The notes under the pieces were generated by a model that ran no database searches, was not told the DNA's origin, and saw only the letters and a list, made by a program, of their open reading frames with translations. A DNA stretch of 64,000 bases from Victivallales bacterium (lineage in GTDB: Bacteria > Verrucomicrobiota > Lentisphaeria > Oligosphaerales > Oligosphaeraceae), in NCBI GenBank assembly GCA_017535315.1, contig JAFXUD010000003.1:1-64000 (forward strand). The letters run 5' to 3'. Both the position numbers and the translations under genes were made by a program. How positions within the stretch are numbered: position 1 is the stretch's first letter; each line of letters starts with the position of its first letter. Shown piece after piece: positions 27,585 to 41,621 of this stretch.

Positions 27585-28667
27585 TTACCTCTCAACTTTG
27601 GATTCAAGCGGAGTTGATTGCTGCTGTAGTTTAGGTGAAGACGATTGAGATGTCTTCAGGATAATTGCCATGACAATCAGCACTATCGTGAAGAAGGCAG
27701 CGACAATCCAGTACAGGAGACTGCCTTTCTTTTTAGGTACTGGAGGCTTTTTAGGAAGACGATTGCGGGAATCGGTTGGCTTGTTGAGTACCAGTTTTTT
27801 CTTCTGAGGCGTGGATAGGGCTGCCGTCACTGCGCGCAGTCCCGCGAGAACTTCTGACCAGCTCTGGATGCGTCTGGTTGGATCCTTGACGAGCATTCTA
27901 TCGACAAGGTCCGAGAGAAGCTGCGGAGTCTGGGGATAGCGATTATTCAGCGGCTCTGGGTTTTCATGTACGTGCCTGTCAAGAACCTCTTGTGCATCAT
28001 TGCCAGGGAAGGGTGGGGACCCCGCAATGACATGATAAAGTGTTGCTCCGAAGGCGTAGATATCAGAACGACAATCGCCTTTTCGTCCATTTCCACGGAT
28101 GAGTTCAGGTGCGGCGTAGAGTGGGGTGAGCATGACCTCATTTCCAGCATAGTCGTGGCCTTCGACCTTGGCAAGCCCGAAGTCGGCGAGTTTTGCTTGT
28201 CCCTGCAAATTGACCATGATGTTTTCTGGCTTGATGTCCCCATGAATGAACTTATACCTTTGCCAGCCGTAGTCAAGGGCTTCCGCAACTTCTGTTAGCA
28301 ATGCAAGTGATTGCAGGATGGGAACTCGCTCGTTCTCGTTGATCATGTCCAGCAGGGTTTCGCCTTCTACATATTCCATGCAGAAATAGTAGAGACCTTC
28401 CGTGGTGATTCCTGCCTTGTATGCCTGAATAATGGCGGGATGCGATAGGGAGGCGGCTGCTCGCGCCTCGTTGAAGAAACGCGATACGTAATCCTTGTCT
28501 CGCGCAAGGGAGGCTGACAGCACCTTGAAGGCAACAGGCCTATCCAAATCAAGCTGCTTGGCCAGATAGACGATAGCCATGGCACCACGTCCAATTTCGT
28601 ATTGGATCTCATAGCCATCGACGATCGTTCCTGGTTGAAGGTATTGGGATGATTTGTCACTGCTCAT
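27585..28667 (-). CDS. Membrane-anchored Ser/Thr protein kinase (HGD variant)
   Basis: A 360-residue Hanks-type kinase: P-loop IGRGAMAIVY (25-34), Lys48 in VAFKVL, catalytic loop HGDIKPENIM at 142-151 and DFG at 162-164, then a basic linker and one membrane helix (~316-337) with a short polar outer tail. The arginine of HRD is replaced by glycine, so activation-loop phosphorylation may not be needed; all catalytic residues (Asp, Lys, Asn, DFG) remain. No sensor domain follows the membrane helix. The ATG overlaps the stop of a short upstream frame (28664-28762). Confidence 0.92.
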   Translation of the reverse strand: MSSDKSSQYLQPGTIVDGYEIQYEIGRGAMAIVYLAKQLDLDRPVAFKVLSASLARDKDYVSRFFNEARAAASLSHPAIIQAYKAGITTEGLYYFCMEYVEGETLLDMINENERVPILQSLALLTEVAEALDYGWQRYKFIHGDIKPENIMVNLQGQAKLADFGLAKVEGHDYAGNEVMLTPLYAAPELIRGNGRKGDCRSDIYAFGATLYHVIAGSPPFPGNDAQEVLDRHVHENPEPLNNRYPQTPQLLSDLVDRMLVKDPTRRIQSWSEVLAGLRAVTAALSTPQKKKLVLNKPTDSRNRLPKKPPVPKKKGSLLYWIVAAFFTIVLIVMAIILKTSQSSSPKLQQQSTPLESKVER

Positions 28668-30388: not shown

Positions 30389-31318
30389 CTACGATTGCGG
30401 GTATAAGCCAGCAGCACATGGCTGGTTTGGAAAGTCGCAGATGGTGTATGAACCTTCAAGGGTCAGGGAACCAGCGCAAAGTTGAAGCTGTCCTCTCGGC
30501 ATTTTCAACAGAAAAGGTTTGTGTTCATGGCCAGAGAGGATGGCATCGACTTTCCCTTCCTTGAGTTTTGCCGCGAGAAACGATGCGCCGCGGAGGCCAT
30601 GTCTCCATCCTGCAAGGGTGTCGTTTGGCATGAGGGGAGGGAAATGGCAGGCGATTGCACGAGGGGTTTCTTCAGGAATATCTTCAAGGAGTTCATCCAC
30701 CCGATGCTGCATGACCGTGTTTAATATGCCGCAAGAGAGGTGGTAGGTGACTGGGCAGGCTGGATTGAGGAGGATGAGTGCCACTCCTTTTACGACATGA
30801 ATAGCGGGTAGGGCGTCCAGTTGCAAACCATCGGGGTTGCAGTGTCGAAAGGTTTGGTGAAGGGTGTCAAAAGCCTTTTCGTCGCTGACATAACGGTCGT
30901 GGTTGCCTGGAACGTAGATGAGATTGTATTTCTTGAATGGCTGCAGGAGCTTTTCGGCAGTTTGGAATTCTGCGGAGATGCCGATGCTGGAGAGGTCGCC
31001 TGTGCAGAGGACCGCGTCTGGCTGGAGCTGCGGAAGAAGTTGCGCGAGGCTTTGAATAAAATCGACGTGGATGCGGTGCTTACGTCGTATCAAGTGATTG
31101 AGGTAACCGAGGATTCGTTTTGTGAAGAGCAATTCACGCAAGGAGGGCGAAAGTCCGATGTGGATGTCCGAGAAATGAAGCAAACGCACAAAGCCGTCTT
31201 TCTTGGATGGAAGATTGTCCTTTTGGGCAATATTCAAAAGATGGCATATCGGAACAGGACGTTGCATGGTTCGCAGAAAGCGGAGACGGAAAACGGGAGG
31301 CTTGAAGGAGGTGATCAT
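30389..31318 (-). CDS. Calcineurin-like metallophosphoesterase
   Basis: About 309 residues with all metallophosphoesterase blocks: HFSDIHIG, CTGDLSS, VPGNHDRY, ACHFPPL and SGHEHKP. These give a binuclear metal centre hydrolysing phosphodiesters or phosphomonoesters; the CpdA-type cytosolic family is nearest by layout. No membrane segment. The start is uncertain: GTG at 31327 and ATG at 31318 and 31267 are all possible. The first two lie inside a 19-bp inverted repeat (31307-31325) carrying the GGAGG. It is 13 bp or less downstream of the zinc-ribbon kinase, so it is probably co-transcribed with it. Confidence 0.85.
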   Translation of the reverse strand: MITSFKPPVFRLRFLRTMQRPVPICHLLNIAQKDNLPSKKDGFVRLLHFSDIHIGLSPSLRELLFTKRILGYLNHLIRRKHRIHVDFIQSLAQLLPQLQPDAVLCTGDLSSIGISAEFQTAEKLLQPFKKYNLIYVPGNHDRYVSDEKAFDTLHQTFRHCNPDGLQLDALPAIHVVKGVALILLNPACPVTYHLSCGILNTVMQHRVDELLEDIPEETPRAIACHFPPLMPNDTLAGWRHGLRGASFLAAKLKEGKVDAILSGHEHKPFLLKMPRGQLQLCAGSLTLEGSYTICDFPNQPCAAGLYPQS

Positions 31319-31325
31319 CACCTCC
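31307..31325. promoter_or_regulatory. Palindrome over the metallophosphoesterase start
   Basis: GGAGGTGAT-C-ATCACCTCC: perfect 9-bp arms around one base. On the minus strand it contains the GGAGG and the ATG at 31318. As RNA it could hide the start site; as DNA it could bind a dimeric regulator. Confidence 0.45.
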
Positions 31326-31331
31326 ACAGGG

Positions 31332-33695
31332 CTATTGTTTCGCGTTCTTCTTCAGTTCTTCGATTTCCTCCTGTGCGTTTTCGAAGGCGTTGGCGTCATA
31401 GTTCTTCAAAACGTAGAGGAGTGGCTTCACTTGTGTTGAAGAGAGTTGCGGAATAAGCTGAATCATAGATTTGAGGTATTCAGCCCCGTTGAGTGCGTCG
31501 GCTTCTTCTGCGCCAAAGGTGTCGCCCAGCTTCTCAAGCTGGTCTTTGACATATTTCAGATTGGCACCGCGGATGAGCAGATAGGTGGCCAGCATCTCCT
31601 GCGCTTCGTCCTTGGAACACTCCTCCTTGTCGGCAGCAGCATAGGCGAGCTTCAGAAGTTGTGGTGGGAGCAGAGTGTCCAAATTGAGTTTTCCGCGCGT
31701 CGTGCTGGTGATATCCTTTTTCTTTTTGGAGTCGTAGTTTGTGCGGGTGAGGTAGATGGAAATGGAGGTGAAAGTAATGTTATCAATTTCCCATTCCTGT
31801 TTATCGCCCAGAACAGGGATAAAGGTGCCTGCGTATTTTTTTTGGGAATCCTTGAAAAGCTTGTAGAATTTTTCGGCCTTGTCAATTCTGTCATGCCATG
31901 ACTTTGCCCAGTTGGAAATCTGTTCGTTGTCAGATGCTTCCATTTCGGATAGCATGACAACGGGGTGTGAGAAGTCGTGTTTATTGGCATACTCAAGTAG
32001 TTTTTCCCTGAAATCAGTCTGTTTTTGCGCAAAGGCGGCTTCCTCATCCTTTTTTGCCTTTTCCTCGGCGGCTTTTGCAGCCTTTGCCTCGGCTTCTGCT
32101 TTTTCTTCGGCTGCCTTACGTTCCGCTTCGCGTGCCTCCATTTCAGCCTTTGCCTTCATGGCGGCGACCCCAGCATCCCAGGTTGCCTTCAATTCGTCGT
32201 ATTTTGCTTTACGTGCTTCCGCAAGTGCTTTCTCTACGAATGGTGCGACTTTGGTATTGAACTCGGCACTGGCAGGTTGGTCAGGAGGAAAATCTGGCAG
32301 AAGGCGCGTAACCTCGCTGATGATGGCCTGCGCATCAGAGCCATCTGCAAGAAGGGTGTCCAGTTGGTTTGTATCGACCTTTTTTCCGCCAGAAAGCGTT
32401 TTTGAAGTATTGGAATCACCAGTTTTCTTCCCGCCAAACGCAAAAAAGGCTCCCCCTGCGCCAAGGAGAATGACGATGATTGCGATGATGGCGATGAGTT
32501 TCCCTTTCCCCGCAGACTTCTGTGGTTGTGCGCCACCAGCTATGGGGGAAGCGTTTGAACTCTGTGCATCGCCTATAGCTGAGGTGGGCTTGGATTTGTC
32601 AAGGGTGAGCTTTCCTTTTCCTCCTTTGATGGAGAGTTTTTTGGCGCTGCCAAAAGCGGGTTCAGTAGTGTTATCATCGTTCCCCAAAGGGAGCATGGGG
32701 TCGGCTGCATTGGAGTCAATGGGAATCTGGGCTTCTGGAATGTCCTCGTGGTTTGGCATTTGTCCCGCTTTGACCAGTTCCAGGTCATTTTTTAGCTCAT
32801 CATAATCTTGATAGCGGTGGCAGGGACGTTTGGCCATCATGATTCGGATGAGGGTCGCCAAGGGAGTGGGGGCGTCTGGTTCCCCGATAGGAGGCAGAGG
32901 CGTTTCCAGATGCATGGTCACGATGTCCTCAACGTTCTGGGACGCATATGGGAATTGTCCTGTAAGCAGGAAATAGAAGGTTGCGCCCAGGGCATAGATG
33001 TCGCTGGAGGGGGTTGCAGGGTTTCCAAAAACCAGTTCGGGGGCGATGCATTGGGGGGTGCCAAAAAGCTCGGAGGAGCCGTCTTCGTTGATTTCCGTGA
33101 CCTTTTTTGCCAGCCCTAGGTCAGCCAGTTTTGTCTGGTTCAGACTGTTCAGCAGGATATTGTCTGGTTTGATGTCCCGATGGATGAGCTTTTTTTCATT
33201 CCATGCGTAGGAGAGTGCGTCAATCATCTCGCTGGCGATTTCAAGGACCCTGCTTTCTGCGAGGGGGCCTGTCATTTCGACCTGTTGCTTGAGAGTCGGG
33301 CCATCGACATACTCCATAGCAAAATAGTATGTCTTTGATGCATCGTCTTTTCCGACAGCGTATGCTTCCACAACGTTCGGGTGACGGATCTGCGCCGCCA
33401 TGCGCGCTTCATTAATGAAGTCCTGGAGAAAGTGCTTGTCGGACTCGAAGGCGGGCAGGAGGATTTTCAGGGCCACGTCTCGGTCCAGGCTGATCTGGTG
33501 CGCGAGAAAGACGGTCCCCATTCCTCCTGTGCCGATTTCACGCAATACGACAAAGTCCCCGATGATGGCACCAGGGGCAGTTTTGGAGAGTGGGACATTG
33601 ACGGCGTTACCGCATTTGCCGCAGGCGACCAACTCGCCTGGCAGACAGTTGTCGATGTCCAATATGGTCTTGCAATAAGGACATTGGAAGCGCAC
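31332..33695 (-). CDS. Zinc-ribbon membrane Ser/Thr protein kinase (DLG variant)
   Basis: About 787 residues from a GTG at 33695 (MRFQCPYC), chosen because GAGG lies 9 nt upstream and the protein begins at its domain; the reading to 33764 adds 23 untypical residues. Order: zinc ribbon with CxxC at 5/8 and 25/28; Hanks kinase with GTGGMG (55-60), Lys77, HRDIKPDN (172-179) and DLG instead of DFG (192-194); linker; one membrane helix (GKLIAIIAIIVILLGAGG); then an outer region with an Ala/Glu/Lys-rich coiled coil and a helical C-terminal domain. Membrane signalling kinase of PVC type. It is followed by the metallophosphoesterase. Confidence 0.9.
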   Translation of the reverse strand: MRFQCPYCKTILDIDNCLPGELVACGKCGNAVNVPLSKTAPGAIIGDFVVLREIGTGGMGTVFLAHQISLDRDVALKILLPAFESDKHFLQDFINEARMAAQIRHPNVVEAYAVGKDDASKTYYFAMEYVDGPTLKQQVEMTGPLAESRVLEIASEMIDALSYAWNEKKLIHRDIKPDNILLNSLNQTKLADLGLAKKVTEINEDGSSELFGTPQCIAPELVFGNPATPSSDIYALGATFYFLLTGQFPYASQNVEDIVTMHLETPLPPIGEPDAPTPLATLIRIMMAKRPCHRYQDYDELKNDLELVKAGQMPNHEDIPEAQIPIDSNAADPMLPLGNDDNTTEPAFGSAKKLSIKGGKGKLTLDKSKPTSAIGDAQSSNASPIAGGAQPQKSAGKGKLIAIIAIIVILLGAGGAFFAFGGKKTGDSNTSKTLSGGKKVDTNQLDTLLADGSDAQAIISEVTRLLPDFPPDQPASAEFNTKVAPFVEKALAEARKAKYDELKATWDAGVAAMKAKAEMEAREAERKAAEEKAEAEAKAAKAAEEKAKKDEEAAFAQKQTDFREKLLEYANKHDFSHPVVMLSEMEASDNEQISNWAKSWHDRIDKAEKFYKLFKDSQKKYAGTFIPVLGDKQEWEIDNITFTSISIYLTRTNYDSKKKKDITSTTRGKLNLDTLLPPQLLKLAYAAADKEECSKDEAQEMLATYLLIRGANLKYVKDQLEKLGDTFGAEEADALNGAEYLKSMIQLIPQLSSTQVKPLLYVLKNYDANAFENAQEEIEELKKNAKQ

Positions 33696-34013
33696 TGCTA
33701 GAACCTCGTGTGTTGTATTGGGTGAAGAAAAATGGAGAGGTGAACTGCGAAACCATCGCCCCAAAAGGTTGGCTTTGCAATAACCTCCGCAGGAAACTCC
33801 AAAAAACGGTTGGTAACTAGAAAAAACTGTTATCTATATTATATTAACTTTTGTTTTGCAAAAACGCAAATACGTTTTGTCAAGATTTTACAATGAAATG
33901 ATGTTTTTTATTTAGGAGGCGGTGAAACGGCTCCTAATTGAGTTCCGAGGGAGACAATGATTGCCTCTTTCGGGAAACAACAAAAGTTCTGAAAAGGGAC
34001 AAAGGAAACAACA
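33696..34013. other. Divergent promoter region between kinase and aldolase
   Basis: A 318-bp gap. 33820-33900 is AT-rich with TATATTATATT and a TTTGC/GCAAA inverted pair. 33913-33934 has an AGGAG...CTCCT hairpin. 33957-33992 is an 11-codon open frame (MIASFGKQQKF) preceded by GAGGGAGA and ending 21 bp before the aldolase ATG; it could be a leader peptide. No confident promoter was found. Confidence 0.35.
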
Positions 34014-34964
34014 ATGATCGTCACGACGAAGGATCTGTTCAAGGCCGCTTACGGCAAGTATGCCATCGGTGCCTACAACATCAACAACCTCGAGCAGTGC
34101 ATGGGCCTCTTCAGGGGCAACATCGCCAGCAAAGCCCCGTTTATCATCCAGATTAGCAAGGGTGCGCGCGGCTACACCAACAAGCTGATGCTGGAAGGCA
34201 TCATCCGTGCCGCCGACCAGGTCTTCCCCGAAGCAATCTTCGCCGTGCATCTGGACCATGGTGACGAGGAAACCTGCATGGACTGTATTAACAGCGGTTT
34301 CTATAGCTCCGTCATGATTGATGCATCCTCCAAGCCCTACGAGGAAAATATTGCCATTACGAAGCGTGTTGTTGACGCGGCCCATGCGAAAGGGCTGGTA
34401 GTTGAGGCCGAGCTAGGACAGCTGGGCGGTGTCGAGGAGCATGTTAAAGTCTCCGAGTCCGAAGCAAAGCTCACGGACCCCGACCAGGCGAAGGACTTTG
34501 TGACCAGAACTGGCGTTGATAGCCTTGCCTGCGCAATCGGCACAAGCCACGGCGCGTTCAAGTTCTCTGGCACCCAGGGACTGCATTTTGACGTTCTGGC
34601 CGAAATCCAGAAGCGTCTTCCTGGCTTCCCGCTGGTGATGCACGGCTCCAGTTCCGTCCCACAGGACGAAGTTCGCCGCATCAACATCGCAGGCGGCAAA
34701 CTGGCAGGCGCCAAGGGCGTCAACGCCGACGAGTTCCTGCGCGCTGCGCAGCTCGGTGTCACCAAAATCAATATTGACACGGACGGTCGCCTCGTGTGGT
34801 GCCGTGTTCACCGTGAACACTTCATCCTGCATCCAGAGGACTTTGACCTGCGTCCCGCTGGCAAGGAGTTTATGGCTGCATATGCGGAGTTCATCGCCGC
34901 CAAGAACGTCAAGCTGGGCAGCGCTGGCAAATTGGACGAAGTCCGCGCGATGCTTGCGAAATAA
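34014..34964 (+). CDS. fba: Class II fructose-bisphosphate aldolase family
   Basis: A 316-residue zinc-dependent aldolase: HLDHG at 79-83 holds the catalytic Asp81 and zinc ligand His82, followed by EAELGQLGG, GTSHGAFKF (zinc His and phosphate binding), MHGSSSVPQDE and KINIDTDGRL. It splits fructose 1,6-bisphosphate into GAP and DHAP, or a related ketose bisphosphate. Length fits the short class II type. AAAGGAAA precedes the start. It is a single gene ending in a strong terminator at 34987. Codon use is more GC-rich and regular than in the neighbouring kinase genes, as expected for a highly expressed enzyme. Confidence 0.92.
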   Translation: MIVTTKDLFKAAYGKYAIGAYNINNLEQCMGLFRGNIASKAPFIIQISKGARGYTNKLMLEGIIRAADQVFPEAIFAVHLDHGDEETCMDCINSGFYSSVMIDASSKPYEENIAITKRVVDAAHAKGLVVEAELGQLGGVEEHVKVSESEAKLTDPDQAKDFVTRTGVDSLACAIGTSHGAFKFSGTQGLHFDVLAEIQKRLPGFPLVMHGSSSVPQDEVRRINIAGGKLAGAKGVNADEFLRAAQLGVTKINIDTDGRLVWCRVHREHFILHPEDFDLRPAGKEFMAAYAEFIAAKNVKLGSAGKLDEVRAMLAK

Positions 34965-34986
34965 TAGCATCGGTGCCTGAAACAGA

Positions 34987-35016
34987 AGACCCGTGCCGAA
35001 GGGCGCGGGTCTTTTT
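34987..35016 (+). terminator. Rho-independent terminator after the aldolase gene
   Basis: AGACCCGTGCC / GGCGCGGGTCT, an 11-bp stem with one G-T pair and a short loop, followed by TTTTTC. Confidence 0.9.
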
Positions 35017-35021
35017 CGTAA

Positions 35022-35175
35022 GAGGGGATTTCAAAACTGGCTCGAAATGCGCTAAGAGATGGGCATAGTAGTTGAGACAACGGCTCGAAGCAGCACGGAC
35101 GTGTGGCGAGAGGCGTTGCCAACGCCAATGTGTTCATAGCGACGCGCATTACGATGATAGTTTTGAAATTTCCTC
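35022..35175. mobile_element. 154-bp element with 17-bp imperfect terminal inverted repeats
   Basis: The ends GAGGGGATTTCAAAACT (35022-35038) and AGTTTTGAAATTTCCTC (35159-35175) pair with two mismatches. The interior is non-coding with small hairpins. It lies just after the aldolase terminator and before the NYN gene. Confidence 0.5.
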
Positions 35176-35223
35176 GTAGTAGAGCTTTTTCAAAAGAGGC
35201 AATTAGTTGATAAGATTTATTAG

Positions 35224-37020
35224 ATGTCCCTATTCTCCACAAATAATCTTAGTGAAGAGGCCTGCAATTGGTTGGTAGAGCATTGCTCCCAGAAGGATTT
35301 GCTGCCCATCCTGAAGAAATATCCGCAGATTTCCCGTAGTGTGTTTGGCGGTTTTCGCCCCACGGCGGAGAACCTACGGTTGCCAGCTGTCCACCTGCGT
35401 TTGATGCAGGAATTGACGGGCAATGTTTTGGTGTGTGAGAAACTGGTGGATGTTTTTGGCAGGTATGCCAGAGATTGTCATCTTGATAGGATGCTTGGTT
35501 GGCTTGGTCCCCGCTGGTTTTTGTCCTATTGGCGTGACATGGGAAGGCGGCTTTCGTATTTCCGTGAGTATTTTGTGCTGTTGTGCGCGACTTATCCTGA
35601 AGATGATGCTGAAAGCGAGTTGTACAGGCGTTTTGGAAGACGTCTTTTAAAAACGCATGGCATGTGGAAAATGGGGGTACCACAGAACGATGATGCCCCT
35701 GAAATCCGTGATGCGCAGAGTTTCATTCGAACAGCATGCCACTTTTTTTATCCAGATAAAATGTTCCTAGAGGGGGCTGCAGAGATCGAACAGGAGGAAG
35801 CTATAAAAAAAGAACTAGCCTCTCTTCGGCAGAGATTGGAGAAGGAGCAGGCGTTGACACGCTCCTTGAAGGCTAAATTGTCAGAGGCAGAGCAGAAGAC
35901 TGATGAGTGTCAAAAGGAGAAAAACACCTTGAAAAAGGAGCTTGGCGCTTTCAGGCATGAACAGGATGCGCGTTTGCAGCGTATGCAGGACGACTATTCT
36001 CAAAAGCTTTGCGTCCAATATGAATTGATGCAGAGGGATTTCCTGGATCTGGACGGGAAATGGCTTCAGACCAGTTCCAATGAGACCGATGAGGCGGATG
36101 TTTTGCTTGAGCGCTCTGAAAATCTCTTGGCGCAACAAAGGCAATTGAACATCAAATATGGCACTCGTAGCGGCCTTCGTGAAAAGGAAAACCAATTGCG
36201 TATGGCATACATGCAGTTGGCGACTGCCGCCAAGGAGTCCCTGCATCCCCATGACGAATTGCGCACGCTGATGGATGCCATCAACCGCAAACGCCAGAAA
36301 ATCAATGCACTGCTTGAGGATGGCAACGAACATGTCGGTTCAGAACTTTATGAATATCTTTTTACGACCATTCGAAGCCTGAAGCACTCCAACGAGATTC
36401 CCTTGGAATTGGAAAGGATTGGACAGTTTATCCGAGATGCTGAGAGCATGGAGCTTCTCCAGACCGACGAACGGACGAATCTGTTGAATCAGTGTGACAA
36501 ACGGCGTATGTTGTGGCAGAATATGTCTAGGACAGGGGAGGACAGAAGCCAGCGCAATGATTCAGAATATACGCCTGAAATCATGGACATACGCAGGCAT
36601 CTGTCTGAAGCTGCCAACGTGATTCTGTTGGTTGACGGCTATAACGTTATGATGCGTTCTGATGGTTGGAAACGCTATCAAGAAAAACGTGGAATGAGTT
36701 TTCAGGAAGTTCGAGGCGAGTTTATCGCGCGATGCAGGAGCATTGCCCGCTATTTCAAGTCGCTTCGGTTGGTGTTTGATGGCGATGACGCTTATTTCGA
36801 CAATGTTTTGCCATGCTCTGATGGCCTTTACGTGGTATATGCCCAGCACAAGGATGAGGAGCATAATGCGGACAGGTATATCAAGGAGTTTATCAATGGC
36901 GATAAACAGGCAGGGGAAAGATTTTGGCTTTGCTCTGAAGATTTTGGCATTCGCCAGGATGTGCAGAGGGTTGATGCATTTGTCAGCAACCTGGCCTTGA
37001 ACCGATTTATCGGGATGTGA
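35224..37020 (+). CDS. Coiled-coil protein with C-terminal NYN/YacP-like nuclease domain
   Basis: A 598-residue soluble protein. Residues 1-185 are a helical domain I do not recognise (EEACNWLVEHCSQKDLLPIL). Residues ~190-265 are a strong Glu/Lys coiled coil, followed by a helical region to ~455. Residues ~458-598 form a PIN-like NYN domain of YacP/Rae1 type: VILLVDGYNVMM (~466-477), LVFDGDD, HNADRYIKEF and LCSEDFGIRQDVQR supply the acidic cluster expected for metal-dependent RNA cleavage. The stop is 15 bp from the start of a kinase-FGE fusion gene, so the two are an operon. Fusion of YacP-like NYN to a long coiled coil is unusual; regulated RNase activity is inference. Confidence 0.75.
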   Translation: MSLFSTNNLSEEACNWLVEHCSQKDLLPILKKYPQISRSVFGGFRPTAENLRLPAVHLRLMQELTGNVLVCEKLVDVFGRYARDCHLDRMLGWLGPRWFLSYWRDMGRRLSYFREYFVLLCATYPEDDAESELYRRFGRRLLKTHGMWKMGVPQNDDAPEIRDAQSFIRTACHFFYPDKMFLEGAAEIEQEEAIKKELASLRQRLEKEQALTRSLKAKLSEAEQKTDECQKEKNTLKKELGAFRHEQDARLQRMQDDYSQKLCVQYELMQRDFLDLDGKWLQTSSNETDEADVLLERSENLLAQQRQLNIKYGTRSGLREKENQLRMAYMQLATAAKESLHPHDELRTLMDAINRKRQKINALLEDGNEHVGSELYEYLFTTIRSLKHSNEIPLELERIGQFIRDAESMELLQTDERTNLLNQCDKRRMLWQNMSRTGEDRSQRNDSEYTPEIMDIRRHLSEAANVILLVDGYNVMMRSDGWKRYQEKRGMSFQEVRGEFIARCRSIARYFKSLRLVFDGDDAYFDNVLPCSDGLYVVYAQHKDEEHNADRYIKEFINGDKQAGERFWLCSEDFGIRQDVQRVDAFVSNLALNRFIGM

Positions 37021-37035
37021 GAAGGTTTCAGAAGA

Positions 37036-39813
37036 ATGACTGAACACCATGAAACAGATATTAAGCAAGAGAGCATGGCTGAAAACGATGCCGAAATGGA
37101 CCACTTTCTCGAGCTAGAGAAGGAACGTCTTGGTCTGCATGTCAGCATCACAGAGCCGCCATTGGAGGTGCTTGGGAAGCTGGGCACTGGTGGCAGTGGC
37201 GAGGTCTGTCTTGCCGTCGATAGTATTCTTGGGAGGAGTGTCGCCGTCAAGTTTTTGCACAAGGAACTGCGTGCCAGATCTGATCAGCTTGAACGCATGA
37301 TACGGGAGGCGCAGGCGGCAGCCCAGTTGGAGCATCCCAATATTGTTCCCATCTATTCCATTGGACTGAGCCCGACTTATGGCGTCTATTTCACGATGAA
37401 GCGTCTGCGTGGGGATTCACTGAGGCATATCCTTTCTGAACTGGCATTGCAGAATCCTGCCTATACCTGGCGTTATACGCCCTCCCGTCGTCTTGCCATT
37501 TTCATCCGCATTTGTCAGGGGGTGTCCTATGCGCACAGCAAAGGGATTTTGCATCGTGATCTGAAGCCCGAGAATGTCCGTATCGGGGACTATGGCGAGG
37601 TGACGATTATTGACTGGGGGCTTGTCCATGAAGTTTCATCCAAATCAACCAGGCGAGATGGCAAGAAAAAAGGGGACGATAAGGGGCACGCGACCTGGGA
37701 GAACGAGCTTGAAATCGACAAGTTCATTAATACGAGCAATCCGACACTGGATGGTGAGCTGAGTGGTACTCCAAGGTATATGTCTCCCGAGCAGGCGGAG
37801 GCGCAAAACTCGGAACTTGATGAACGCTCTGACATCTATTCTCTTGGGGTAATTTTATATGAACTTCTGACTTGCTATAATCCCTTTTACGACAAGGAAT
37901 CGCAGCGTGATATAATTGATGCGGTGTGCAAAGGGAACTACCATAAGCCACGCCGTTTTGCGACCGCTAAAAATGTGTCTGAAGAACTTGAGGCGATTTG
38001 CCTCAAGGCAATGGCGTTGCACCGTGAGAACCGCTATCAGAGCGTGAACGAACTATTGAAGGATATTTATGCACATCAAGAGGGAAGTCAGGTCCAGGCT
38101 TTCACGGGAAATGCCTACCGCAAGATGATGAAGCTTTTTAGGCGAAATCCTATTCGGACTGCGGTTTTCTTCAGCGCAATCCTTGCAGTTGTCTCCTTTG
38201 CATCAATACGCTATTTCATTGACAAGCAGAATTTTAACAGAGTTATGGAACAAGTCGAGGAATCATTGGATACTGTTAAACGCCATCAGCATCTGCTGCA
38301 ATATAAACAAGAAGGGAGCGCGGGCATGGATCCAGATTTCCAGAAAAAGACGGCCAATATGCAGAACGAAATCGAGAATCAGCTTGAGGCGGCGAACCTG
38401 CTGTTGAATTCTGTCTCCAATTTCAAGCCAGGGCTTTATCGTTTTCAACGTATCCAGGAGAGACTCCTGATGAATGATATGCGCTTCTGCGCAAAGTACA
38501 GGCATTTCCCCGAATTGCGGAAAAGGCTGGGACAGGCGGACGAACTACTTGTCTTCAGGCGCGAGTATGCAAGTCCAGAGTTTATGGAGGCTGTTTATCA
38601 GGCGCGTCTGCTTCTTTCTGGAAACTGCACGATTGCTTCTGTGGTATCGGAACCAGCAGGAGCCGTCTTGCGCATCCAAAAGGTTTTGGCGGAAAACCAG
38701 GATGGAAAGCTGATTTTGGATGATTACAAGATATTTAATGAATTTGCCACTGAATCCAATAAAGAGAATGAGCCTGGCAAAGAGAATGAGCCTGGCAAAG
38801 AGAATGAGCCTGGCAAAGACAATGAGCCTGGCAAAGAGAATGAGCCTGGCAAAGACAATGAGCCTGGCAAAGAGAATGAGCCTGGCAAAGAGAATGAGCC
38901 TAAGAAAAACAATGATGTTGTGGAGGATATGACAGTTGCACATACTCCTTTGCAGAGCTTTACGTTGGCAAAGGGAAAATATATTTTCAGCTTCGAGACA
39001 CGTGGCGGCCAGAAACTGGAGCTTCCCGTTTTGCTACGTCATGCGGAGGAACGCAATATCCGCGTGGTTGTTCCCCGCGAGATTCCAGCAGGTACAGTCT
39101 ATGTTCCTGAAGGGTTGTTTTTTCTTGGAGACCATGATCTGGAAGATGACTTGTACAGGCGCCAGTACATTTCTGGTTTTTTCATCGGCAAATATGAGGT
39201 GACTTTTGCGGAATACATCCAATTCTGGCTTGAATTGCCAGAAGATGAACGGGATGAGTGTATGCCAGTGGTGGTTCTGACGGATCGGCGAACGCCGATA
39301 AACGCCTTGGACAGCAAGGGGCACCTTCACAACAAGCTTCGTGCAGAGTGTCCTGTTGTGGGAATATCGCATGATGCGGCAGTGAAATACTGCACGTGGT
39401 ATGGGCAACGAATCGGTAGGCTCTGCCGTCTGCCTACTGCCGATGAGTGGGAGGCTGCCGCACGTGGCGTGGATGCTAGGCTCTATCCCTGGGGAAACAG
39501 CTTTGGGCCAGAATATGCCAATACCGTTGAAAATGTTGCTTCTCGTGAAAAACAGGGGCATTATCCCGCGCCTCCAGGCTCCTTCCCGAAGGATGTATCG
39601 CCGTTTGGGGCGTATGACATGGCAGGAAATGTTCGCGAAATCACGGATAGCCAGTTCAATGACGGAACCGATTACTACCAGATAAAAGGGGCCAGCTTCA
39701 CTTCCAGCCGTCGTTCCTTGCCACTCTATGTTTCAGGAGACACGCCTTTTTCGCCTTCTGACGTGGGCTTTCGCATCCTTATCCCCTTGCAGCCACAGGA
39801 TGTTGAGGAGTAG
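37036..39813 (+). CDS. Ser/Thr kinase - membrane helix - FGE-sulfatase domain fusion (DWG variant)
   Basis: 925 residues. The kinase domain (~45-330) has LGTGGSGEVCLA, AVKFLH, HRDLKPEN at 173-180 and DWG in place of DFG at ~193-195. One membrane helix at ~373-393. An outer region with a coiled coil precedes a run of eight hexapeptides (KENEPG/KDNEPG, residues 576-623). A formylglycine-generating-enzyme/SUMF1-like domain (~685-925) follows, with FFIGKYEVTFAEYIQF, RLPTADEWEAAARG, YPWGNSFG, GAYDMAGNVREI and a DVGFRI end. No CxPxR-active FGE cysteines are obvious, so this domain probably binds ligands. AGAAGG precedes the ATG. It is the second gene of the NYN operon. Confidence 0.9.
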   Translation: MTEHHETDIKQESMAENDAEMDHFLELEKERLGLHVSITEPPLEVLGKLGTGGSGEVCLAVDSILGRSVAVKFLHKELRARSDQLERMIREAQAAAQLEHPNIVPIYSIGLSPTYGVYFTMKRLRGDSLRHILSELALQNPAYTWRYTPSRRLAIFIRICQGVSYAHSKGILHRDLKPENVRIGDYGEVTIIDWGLVHEVSSKSTRRDGKKKGDDKGHATWENELEIDKFINTSNPTLDGELSGTPRYMSPEQAEAQNSELDERSDIYSLGVILYELLTCYNPFYDKESQRDIIDAVCKGNYHKPRRFATAKNVSEELEAICLKAMALHRENRYQSVNELLKDIYAHQEGSQVQAFTGNAYRKMMKLFRRNPIRTAVFFSAILAVVSFASIRYFIDKQNFNRVMEQVEESLDTVKRHQHLLQYKQEGSAGMDPDFQKKTANMQNEIENQLEAANLLLNSVSNFKPGLYRFQRIQERLLMNDMRFCAKYRHFPELRKRLGQADELLVFRREYASPEFMEAVYQARLLLSGNCTIASVVSEPAGAVLRIQKVLAENQDGKLILDDYKIFNEFATESNKENEPGKENEPGKENEPGKDNEPGKENEPGKDNEPGKENEPGKENEPKKNNDVVEDMTVAHTPLQSFTLAKGKYIFSFETRGGQKLELPVLLRHAEERNIRVVVPREIPAGTVYVPEGLFFLGDHDLEDDLYRRQYISGFFIGKYEVTFAEYIQFWLELPEDERDECMPVVVLTDRRTPINALDSKGHLHNKLRAECPVVGISHDAAVKYCTWYGQRIGRLCRLPTADEWEAAARGVDARLYPWGNSFGPEYANTVENVASREKQGHYPAPPGSFPKDVSPFGAYDMAGNVREITDSQFNDGTDYYQIKGASFTSSRRSLPLYVSGDTPFSPSDVGFRILIPLQPQDVEE
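38761..38904 (+). repeat. Eight 18-bp tandem repeats in the kinase-FGE gene
   Basis: Unit AAAGAGAATGAGCCTGGC, nearly identical in DNA, with G-to-C changes giving KDNEPG in copies 4 and 6 and a changed end in copy 8. Encodes the charged linker between the outer coiled coil and the FGE domain. The frame is kept because the unit is a multiple of three. Confidence 0.95.
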
Positions 39814-39843
39814 TTCTGATATCCCCTCTTTAGTTTGTTATCT

Positions 39844-40545
39844 TTACCAGCTGCCTTGCCAGAAGATTTTTCCATCAGTGGTGTTGTTGAGGAGTCCCTT
39901 GACAACTCTGTGCTCAACATGTCCGTCGCTAAAGCTGACGTTGAGGCCCTTGCCATGGCGGACTTGCACGTCTTCGCTGGCGTCATAGTCAGGGGCTGTG
40001 TTGGGGTATGTACTGCCGTCCCATTGGGAGCCGCTGGAATTTATTCCTACGTTGAGGCGTCCGTCCCCAAGAAACCAGGTCTGGGATGGATACTGCATGA
40101 TTACCTTGCCAGGCTGGACCTCGTATGAACCGACATAACCGAAAACCCTGTTTTTGCTTACGTTGGCGGCTGCGCCATTGTAACCGTAGCAGCTTTGGAT
40201 GCAATCACTGTTATAGACATAGCGGTACTGTGCCGATGGACACTGAAAAACGCCTTGGATGATGGGCTTCGTCGCGGAATATCCCGTCTTGTCGTATGTC
40301 CCGAGAAGATAGGGATAAAGGTAATAGTTCATGGTAAGGGGATGATATCCCCAGCAGGCGTATTCGTCATTGTCCGATTCATAGAGGTTGAGGGCGAGAG
40401 CAAGCTGTTTGAGGTTGTTCTTGCAGCTTGTGTCCCGTGCCTTTGCGCGCGCCTTGCTCAAGGCGGGCAACAACATGGCGGCTAGAATGGCGATGATGGC
40501 AATGACGACTAAAAGCTCAATCAGCGTGAATGGTTTTCTTTTCAT
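39844..40545 (-). CDS. Type II secretion-like pseudopilin with H-X9-DG motif
   Basis: A 233-residue protein. The start at 40545 ([18 protein letters not shown]) gives a short basic leader and the prepilin site followed by Phe-Thr-Leu-Ile-Glu (Glu5 of the mature protein) and a hydrophobic helix; GGAG lies about 11 nt upstream. A DUF1559-type globular domain follows ([20 protein letters not shown], with paired cysteines) and the C-terminal [18 protein letters not shown] shows the H-X9-DG signature. Such proteins occur in very large families in Lentisphaerota and Planctomycetota. It should be cleaved by a prepilin peptidase and inserted in the inner membrane or a pseudopilus. It converges with the kinase-FGE gene. 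Confidence 0.92.
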
Positions 40546-40835
40546 TGTCTTTATGCTCCAGGATAGTTTGGTTTTCATAGATTTCTATTTATTATACAAA
40601 TGAAAAGAGAAAAAGCAAGTTGTTGCTAGAAAATAACCTCACTGATACTGCCGTTTGGGGCAAGGCCTTTGGAGGAACGTTTTTTTGCAGGTTTGGAGGA
40701 CAGTTTCCTTGGGGGAAAACGGGCGCGCTTCGCGCATCCCAGAAGCACTCCAGAAGAGTCCTGGGGCCAATCCCTCTGGGGTGCGCGTTCTACGCGTACC
40801 CTTTGTACCAGTGGGCTATGTAGTGCCCATGTTGT
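40546..40835. other. Non-coding gap with GC-rich hairpins
   Basis: The first 80 bp are the pseudopilin leader. 40725-40800 holds GCGCGCTTCGCGC- and GTGCGCGTTCTACGCGTAC-type hairpins similar in style to the elements at 7795 and 27356. No gene and no clear terminal repeats seen. Confidence 0.4.
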
Positions 40836-41621
40836 TTAACCACAGGCGAATCGCCGATGGGTTTCTTTGTCACCGTATTTGTCATCAGTGGAGGCAAGTT
40901 CCTCTGGCGAATAAGCCGTTTGGATTTCACGCACGAGAACTTGTTCGGGGAAATCCCCCTCCACCATTGTGAACAGGATTCGCCAGGTGCGGTAGGCGAG
41001 AACATGCGAACCATCTATATCGGGGCAGAGGCGGTTTCGGGTGCTGTCGAGAGGGGTGATGGATAGGCGATCCTGGATGAAGTCCTGGATGCAGGGCACG
41101 CCATTGTTGGCAAGCCACTCTAGTTGCCGTGCCGCGAGTTCCGTGTATTGGATTTGGTAGCATTTCTCGTTACCCTCGGCTGTCCAGCCAGGGGATGCAT
41201 CTGGGAAGGAATCTGCATACGGAAGATAGGGTTTGATGTCGAGGATGGGGGTACCGTCAAGCAGATCGTGGGAGGAGATGAAGATGTTGCGTCCCTTGAT
41301 GGCATCAAGGTGGACGCAGGAGATGCCTATGCGTGAAGGCCTGTAGGGTGAACGCGACGCGAATAGGCCGACTTTCTGGTTGGTATGGCGGGGGGGCTGG
41401 ATCATTGGTTTCCAGGTGGTGTTCTTGTGAAAAAGGAAAACCACCCAGATGTGGGAGAAGGAATCCAGTCGGAAAAGGGCATTCTCATATTCAGGCATGA
41501 GCGTGATGATGCCTTTGTTGCCAGTTGCCAGGACCCCCTGCCTCGGCACATCGTATGGGTATTTTTGCTTGCAGGAGAAGAATCCAATGGGGCTTATGAT
41601 ATATTGGGGCCTCTCGGTCAT
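40836..41621 (-). CDS. trmO: tRNA (N6-threonylcarbamoyladenosine37-N6)-methyltransferase TrmO
   Basis: A 261-residue SAM-dependent methyltransferase of the TsaA/YaeB fold. Visible: YIISPIGFFSCKQKYPYDVPRQG at the start, FSHIWVVFLFH, ASRSPYRPSRIGISCVHL, the ILDIKPYLPYAD motif near 130 and a C-terminal segment RTWRILFTMV. It methylates t6A37 of tRNA-Thr. Length close to E. coli YaeB. The ATG overlaps the TGA of the antiporter gene (ATGA), making it the last gene of a four-gene overlapping operon. Confidence 0.88.
   Translation of the reverse strand: MTERPQYIISPIGFFSCKQKYPYDVPRQGVLATGNKGIITLMPEYENALFRLDSFSHIWVVFLFHKNTTWKPMIQPPRHTNQKVGLFASRSPYRPSRIGISCVHLDAIKGRNIFISSHDLLDGTPILDIKPYLPYADSFPDASPGWTAEGNEKCYQIQYTELAARQLEWLANNGVPCIQDFIQDRLSITPLDSTRNRLCPDIDGSHVLAYRTWRILFTMVEGDFPEQVLVREIQTAYSPEELASTDDKYGDKETHRRFACG

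Follow-up and report, generated by a model that had tools for sequence, protein, structure and literature searches.

A Rae1-like NYN coiled-coil protein of Victivallales and its clade-specific pairing with a kinase-FGE protein

The window, a 64,000-nucleotide stretch of contig JAFXUD010000003.1 from a gut-type Victivallales bacterium (assembly GCA_017535315.1), carries two neighbouring genes. One encodes a coiled-coil protein ending in a YacP/Rae1-type NYN domain, and the other a transmembrane Ser/Thr kinase with an FGE-fold domain. The reading that we favour, with a probability of roughly 0.6, takes the NYN protein for a Rae1-like, metal-dependent RNase of the cytosol that its helical and coiled-coil parts direct to a target. 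In one clade its gene would be co-transcribed with that of an ordinary kinase-FGE receptor. The pairing is a local, clade-specific arrangement and not a conserved signalling system, because the genes are apart, or only one of them is present, in most relatives.

Both open reading frames were confirmed on the + strand (Table 1). They are separated by 15 bp (37021-37035), the spacing given in an earlier sequence-only reading of the window. The gap runs from the stop codon of the first frame to the ATG of the second and holds a Shine-Dalgarno-like sequence, AGAAGG. The upstream neighbour of the pair is a fructose-bisphosphate aldolase gene, followed by a Rho-independent-type terminator hairpin with a 13-pair stem, a GAAG loop and then a U-run (−25.5 kcal/mol, z −6.5). 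Because this strong hairpin sits behind the aldolase gene, and given the short spacing, the NYN and kinase genes probably form a transcription unit of their own. An Rfam search of positions 34000-41000 gave no match, and consensus promoter sites around the pair were not above chance. Two more Hanks-type Ser/Thr kinases are encoded nearby on the other strand. The larger of these has a weak N-terminal zinc-ribbon match and is adjoined by a metallophosphoesterase gene.

Table 1. Features of the locus, in positions of the window.
Feature	Position	Strand	Details
Hanks-type Ser/Thr kinase gene	27585-28667	-	
Metallophosphoesterase gene	30389-31327		
Hanks-type Ser/Thr kinase gene, larger	31332-33764	-	
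Fructose-bisphosphate aldolase gene	34014-34964		
Rho-independent-type terminator hairpin	34985-35014	+	3' of the aldolase gene; separates it from the pair
Coiled-coil NYN protein gene (P0001)	35224-37020	+	598 aa
N-terminal all-helical domain (residues 11-174)	35254-35745	+	Structure model
Long coiled-coil helix (residues 190-312)	35791-36159	+	Structure model
Second helical region (residues 317-439)	36172-36540	+	Structure model
YacP/Rae1-type NYN domain (residues 466-598)	36619-37017	+	Pfam, profile, alignment, model
NYN acidic residue D471	36634-36636	+	
NYN acidic residue D519	36778-36780	+	
NYN acidic residue D550	36871-36873	+	
NYN acidic residue D573	36940-36942	+	
Transmembrane Ser/Thr kinase gene with FGE-fold domain (P0002)	37036-39813	+	925 aa
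Hanks-type kinase domain (residues 44-343)	37165-38064	+	HRDLKPEN and DWG; Pkinase 1.8e-42
Single predicted transmembrane segment (about residues 373-395)	38152-38220	+	Hydropathy
18-bp in-frame tandem repeat, coding KENEPG/KDNEPG, outer part of kinase	38761-38901	+	7.8 copies, 96% match
FGE/SUMF1-like domain (residues 686-914)	39091-39777	+	FGE-sulfatase 4.3e-35

The assignment of the NYN domain rests on several searches. NYN_YacP (PF05991) matches residues 468-580 of the window protein with an E-value of 2.4e-5, at 24.9 bits barely over the cut-off of 24.6. The same model matches 16 of 19 family members (E <= 0.1), the best at 7.9e-10. A profile built from 25 NYN domain sequences of the family had a single significant match in the PDB, Rae1/YacP (PDB ID: 5mq8 and 5mq9; E 1.6e-8), and a full-length family profile gave only chance coiled-coil matches there. 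An AlphaFold2 model was computed from the window protein and six relatives (from Victivallales, Lentisphaeria or Verrucomicrobia bacterium contigs, several of them ruminant-gut). The mean pLDDT is 72, and about 85-90 in the NYN part; the helical parts are of moderate confidence (pTM 0.31). When this model was compared with the PDB by Foldseek, the best match, and the only significant one, was again Rae1 (5mq9_A; E 1.7e-4, TM 0.60 on the target), in agreement with a PIN-like/Rossmann fold. The coiled coil is modelled as a helix about 120 residues long. The long coiled coil and the YacP/Rae1-like domain with its acidic residues, noticed at first from the letters alone, are borne out, the former by the model and the latter by Pfam, profile, fold and alignment. 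The N-terminal helical domain has conserved positions across the family (W16, G43, W103, L141 and W148), and a fold search of the PDB with this part found no significant relative.

An incomplete acidic cluster in a structural model had been named as one of two findings that would count against the sequence-only reading; by sequence the cluster is complete (D471, D519, D550 and D573), so that reading stood on this point. D471, N474, D519 and D573 are invariant in the 25 NYN sequences, at least 90% of which also have D550. Two homologues, L041 and L050, carry glycine at the D550 position (NAD to NAG or DAG). Their NYN domains are possibly inactive, and activity may therefore not be universal in the family. 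This loss of the third aspartate, together with the fact that about three quarters of the protein is helical in the model, agrees with the alternative that the protein is a degenerate nuclease serving as an RNA-binding or structural coiled-coil scaffold. However, few columns of this otherwise fast-evolving family are as well conserved as the acidic positions, and we consider the scaffold alternative unlikely.

The second protein has the features of a Hanks-type kinase: the VAIK lysine (in AVKFL), HRDLKPEN, and DWG in place of DFG. These motifs are conserved in orthologues, HRDLKPEN and DWG in all 20 of those aligned. Together with the Pfam matches and the one hydrophobic segment, this agrees with its initial description as a transmembrane Ser/Thr kinase with DWG and an FGE/SUMF1-like domain. 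The KENEPG repeat is private to the kinase of the window's genome among the aligned copies, and is absent from the orthologue in G019. Compared with the PDB, the FGE domain matches 7spq at 1.7e-17 and SUMF2 at 1.4e-15, and its relatives include chains deposited as Ser/Thr kinases (7spq and 5nxl). The segment that carries the FGE catalytic cysteines (IKGASFTSSRRSLPL) contains no cysteines in the window kinase and none in its orthologues, so formylglycine generation is not expected from this domain. An FGE-type C-type-lectin fold without catalytic residues has been described for TaqVP, a variable protein of a diversity-generating retroelement (DGR; PMC6328139). Since such a fold is described and PDB relatives are deposited as kinases, kinase-FGE proteins are a known kind. 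DGR diversification of the window FGE domain was rejected, because a search of the window's genome for a reverse transcriptase (RVT_1) found no match. Elsewhere in that genome, G000:C19 and G000:C88 hold very large open reading frames (about 1320 aa) that encode several FGE-fold domains one after another.

The distribution of the two genes was followed in 29 genomes of the GTDB family and 48 of the order. The NYN protein occurs in 21 of the 29 family genomes and the full kinase-FGE orthologue in 20, with a fragment in one more (G005). Both genes are present in 14 genomes (G005 counted), the NYN gene alone in 7, the kinase gene alone in 7 and neither in 1; some absences may be assembly gaps, to which two genomes are counterexamples: G010, assembled as a single contig, has the kinase but lacks the NYN gene, and G027, which is 96% complete, has the NYN gene but no such kinase. 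There is no positive association between the two presences (Fisher p 0.38, odds ratio 0.29). Across the order, NYN family matches are found in 34 of 48 genomes, with the full-length architecture recurring throughout, and kinase orthologues in 27. Outside the order the NYN matches are weak or partial. Frames of 834-927 aa in three genomes of the same phylum (G124, G273 and G109) match the coiled coil and the NYN part only, and are possible distant relatives of the family. A scan for related loci with the single window NYN protein as query returned no relative.

The NYN family tree recovers the genus groups g5, g8, g11 and g12, and these groups also appear in the kinase tree for genomes that have both genes. 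At the level of the order, Victivallales, the NYN gene occurs mostly as a single copy and has most likely been passed on largely by vertical descent. It and the kinase-FGE gene represent two order-level families that are independent of each other.

The two genes adjoin in three genomes from two genera, namely the window's genome, G019 of the same genus and G017 of another. In these cases they lie on the same strand with gaps of about 10 to 32 bp. The flanks differ: the aldolase gene is upstream in the window's genus and a different open reading frame in G017, and the downstream genes differ too. The short gaps and differing flanks are in keeping with co-transcription in one clade. The NYN proteins of the two genera share only 27% identity, and adjacency kept between them despite this divergence leaves room for a clade-specific functional link.

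The pair had been presented as an operon, and separation of the two genes in most relatives had been named as the other finding that would refute the sequence-only reading; this finding was made. Of the 13 family genomes in which both are present and placeable, 10 have them apart; in all ten another gene follows the NYN gene and the kinase gene is on another contig. G005 is cut at contig ends and was left out of this ratio. Six more genomes of the order have both genes, and no kinase orthologue lies within the NYN neighbourhood that was read. A conserved two-gene operon was rejected on this gene order (3 adjacent, 10 apart) and on the co-occurrence counts (14/7/7/1). In G018, which belongs to the window's genus, the kinase gene is preceded by a dihydrouridine synthase gene and there is no detectable NYN gene. 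The kinase tree groups G018 with the three adjacent cases, a placement that is less than certain given the long branches. The idea that the kinase gene had been inserted between the NYN gene and one shared with g5 was likewise set aside, as the neighbours taken to be shared have only 22-24% identity.

These results weigh on the mechanism proposed in the sequence-only reading, a dedicated pathway in which a ligand on the outer FGE domain activates the kinase, the coiled-coil NYN protein is phosphorylated, and RNA cleavage is turned on or off. The 15 bp gap on one strand, the adjacency retained in G019 and G017 with different flanking genes, and the intact catalytic motifs of both proteins are what such a pathway would lead one to expect. 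The separation of the genes in most relatives, the seven family genomes with each gene alone, and the G018 kinase beside another gene in the same genus argue against it. Because the genes are mostly apart (10 of 13) and their presences are not associated (p 0.38), the proposed chain from outer signal through kinase to RNase has no comparative support outside one clade, and we give it little credence. Kinase control of the NYN RNase is possible but unsupported. A narrower form, in which the kinase phosphorylates the NYN protein in the two genera with adjacent genes and an outside signal sets the rate of RNA decay, is likewise improbable. If true, a receptor kinase would act on a ribonuclease in a pathway of which the papers found describe no example. 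The statement that no described system has this pair was matched by our literature search, which found no paper on one.

In the window's genome an NYN paralogue (G000:C32) with 29% identity is immediately followed by two GmrSD-type genes. This locus (L034:9948-15154), with a diverged NYN coiled-coil protein followed by two genes resembling defence proteins, looks like a defence-type island, and shows that the NYN family can occupy other contexts in the same cell. The paralogue's setting, and the occurrence of FGE-fold domains in DGR-diversified conflict systems (PMC10907252), would suit a defence or abortive-infection module with the FGE domain as sensor of an invader and the NYN RNase as effector. 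For the window pair this was rejected as very improbable: no PADLOC model matches the window NYN protein, the kinase matches the kinase-domain models of several PADLOC systems as any such kinase would, the FGE domain is not DGR-diversified, defence-like genes are found only beside the paralogue, and the NYN family, found across the order mostly in single copy and in step with the genus groups, behaves unlike most defence genes.

We therefore return to the reading of a Rae1-like RNase beside an ordinary receptor kinase. The first gene product would be a cytosolic, metal-dependent endoribonuclease whose catalytic part works like Rae1/YacP. Its NYN domain would be carried by the long coiled coil, and the protein is probably a dimer or oligomer. 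The N-terminal helical domain may select the target, which could be RNA, the ribosome or a partner protein. The second product would be a membrane receptor kinase in its own right, about as widespread, with an outer FGE-fold domain that has no formylglycine chemistry and probably serves to bind a ligand or a protein. The two genes would have come to lie side by side in one clade of two genera, where co-transcription is probable. What would have made the locus most noteworthy, a conserved NYN-kinase system, is removed by the gene order. What remains is an uncharacterised, order-wide family of Rae1-type nucleases that has a helical domain and a coiled coil of its own. Every YacP-type NYN match found in the genomes of the GTDB family is this protein or its paralogue, which makes the family a reasonable candidate for RNA decay tied to the ribosome or to mRNA in these bacteria.

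Proteins in the PDB deposited as Ser/Thr kinases (7spq, 'ToxD', and 5nxl/5nyy) likewise have an FGE/C-type-lectin-fold domain. In the window protein, by contrast, the kinase is N-terminal and the FGE domain C-terminal, with one transmembrane helix and a spacer between them, and the FGE domain is not DGR-diversified. Chlamydia Pkn1 is a further Ser/Thr kinase with a domain of this fold. SUMF1 and its paralogue SUMF2 belong to the same domain family, but the cysteines of the catalytic segment are missing in the window protein.

It is established that NYN domains act as metal-dependent RNases and that their aspartates are essential (PMC11346440). The CRISPR-associated NYN ribonuclease of Bacteroides fragilis is likewise a metal-dependent nuclease of NYN/PIN-like type, and its aspartate triad is conserved (PMC11346440); no coiled coil is reported for it and its context is CRISPR, whereas the neighbours of the window NYN gene are aldolase and kinase genes. 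The closest likeness is to Rae1/YacP of Bacillus subtilis (PDB ID: 5MQ8, 5MQ9; PF05991), which has the same NYN fold and whose VDGYN, FD(G/A), AD and (S/T)xD motifs align with those of the window protein. Rae1 is small (about 180 residues) and essentially the domain alone, whereas the window domain ends a 598-residue protein with a helical domain and a coiled coil, which sets it apart from the small, single-domain Rae1 orthologues. The coiled-coil NYN family is probably a new variant of the Rae1-type nuclease, set in a larger architecture.
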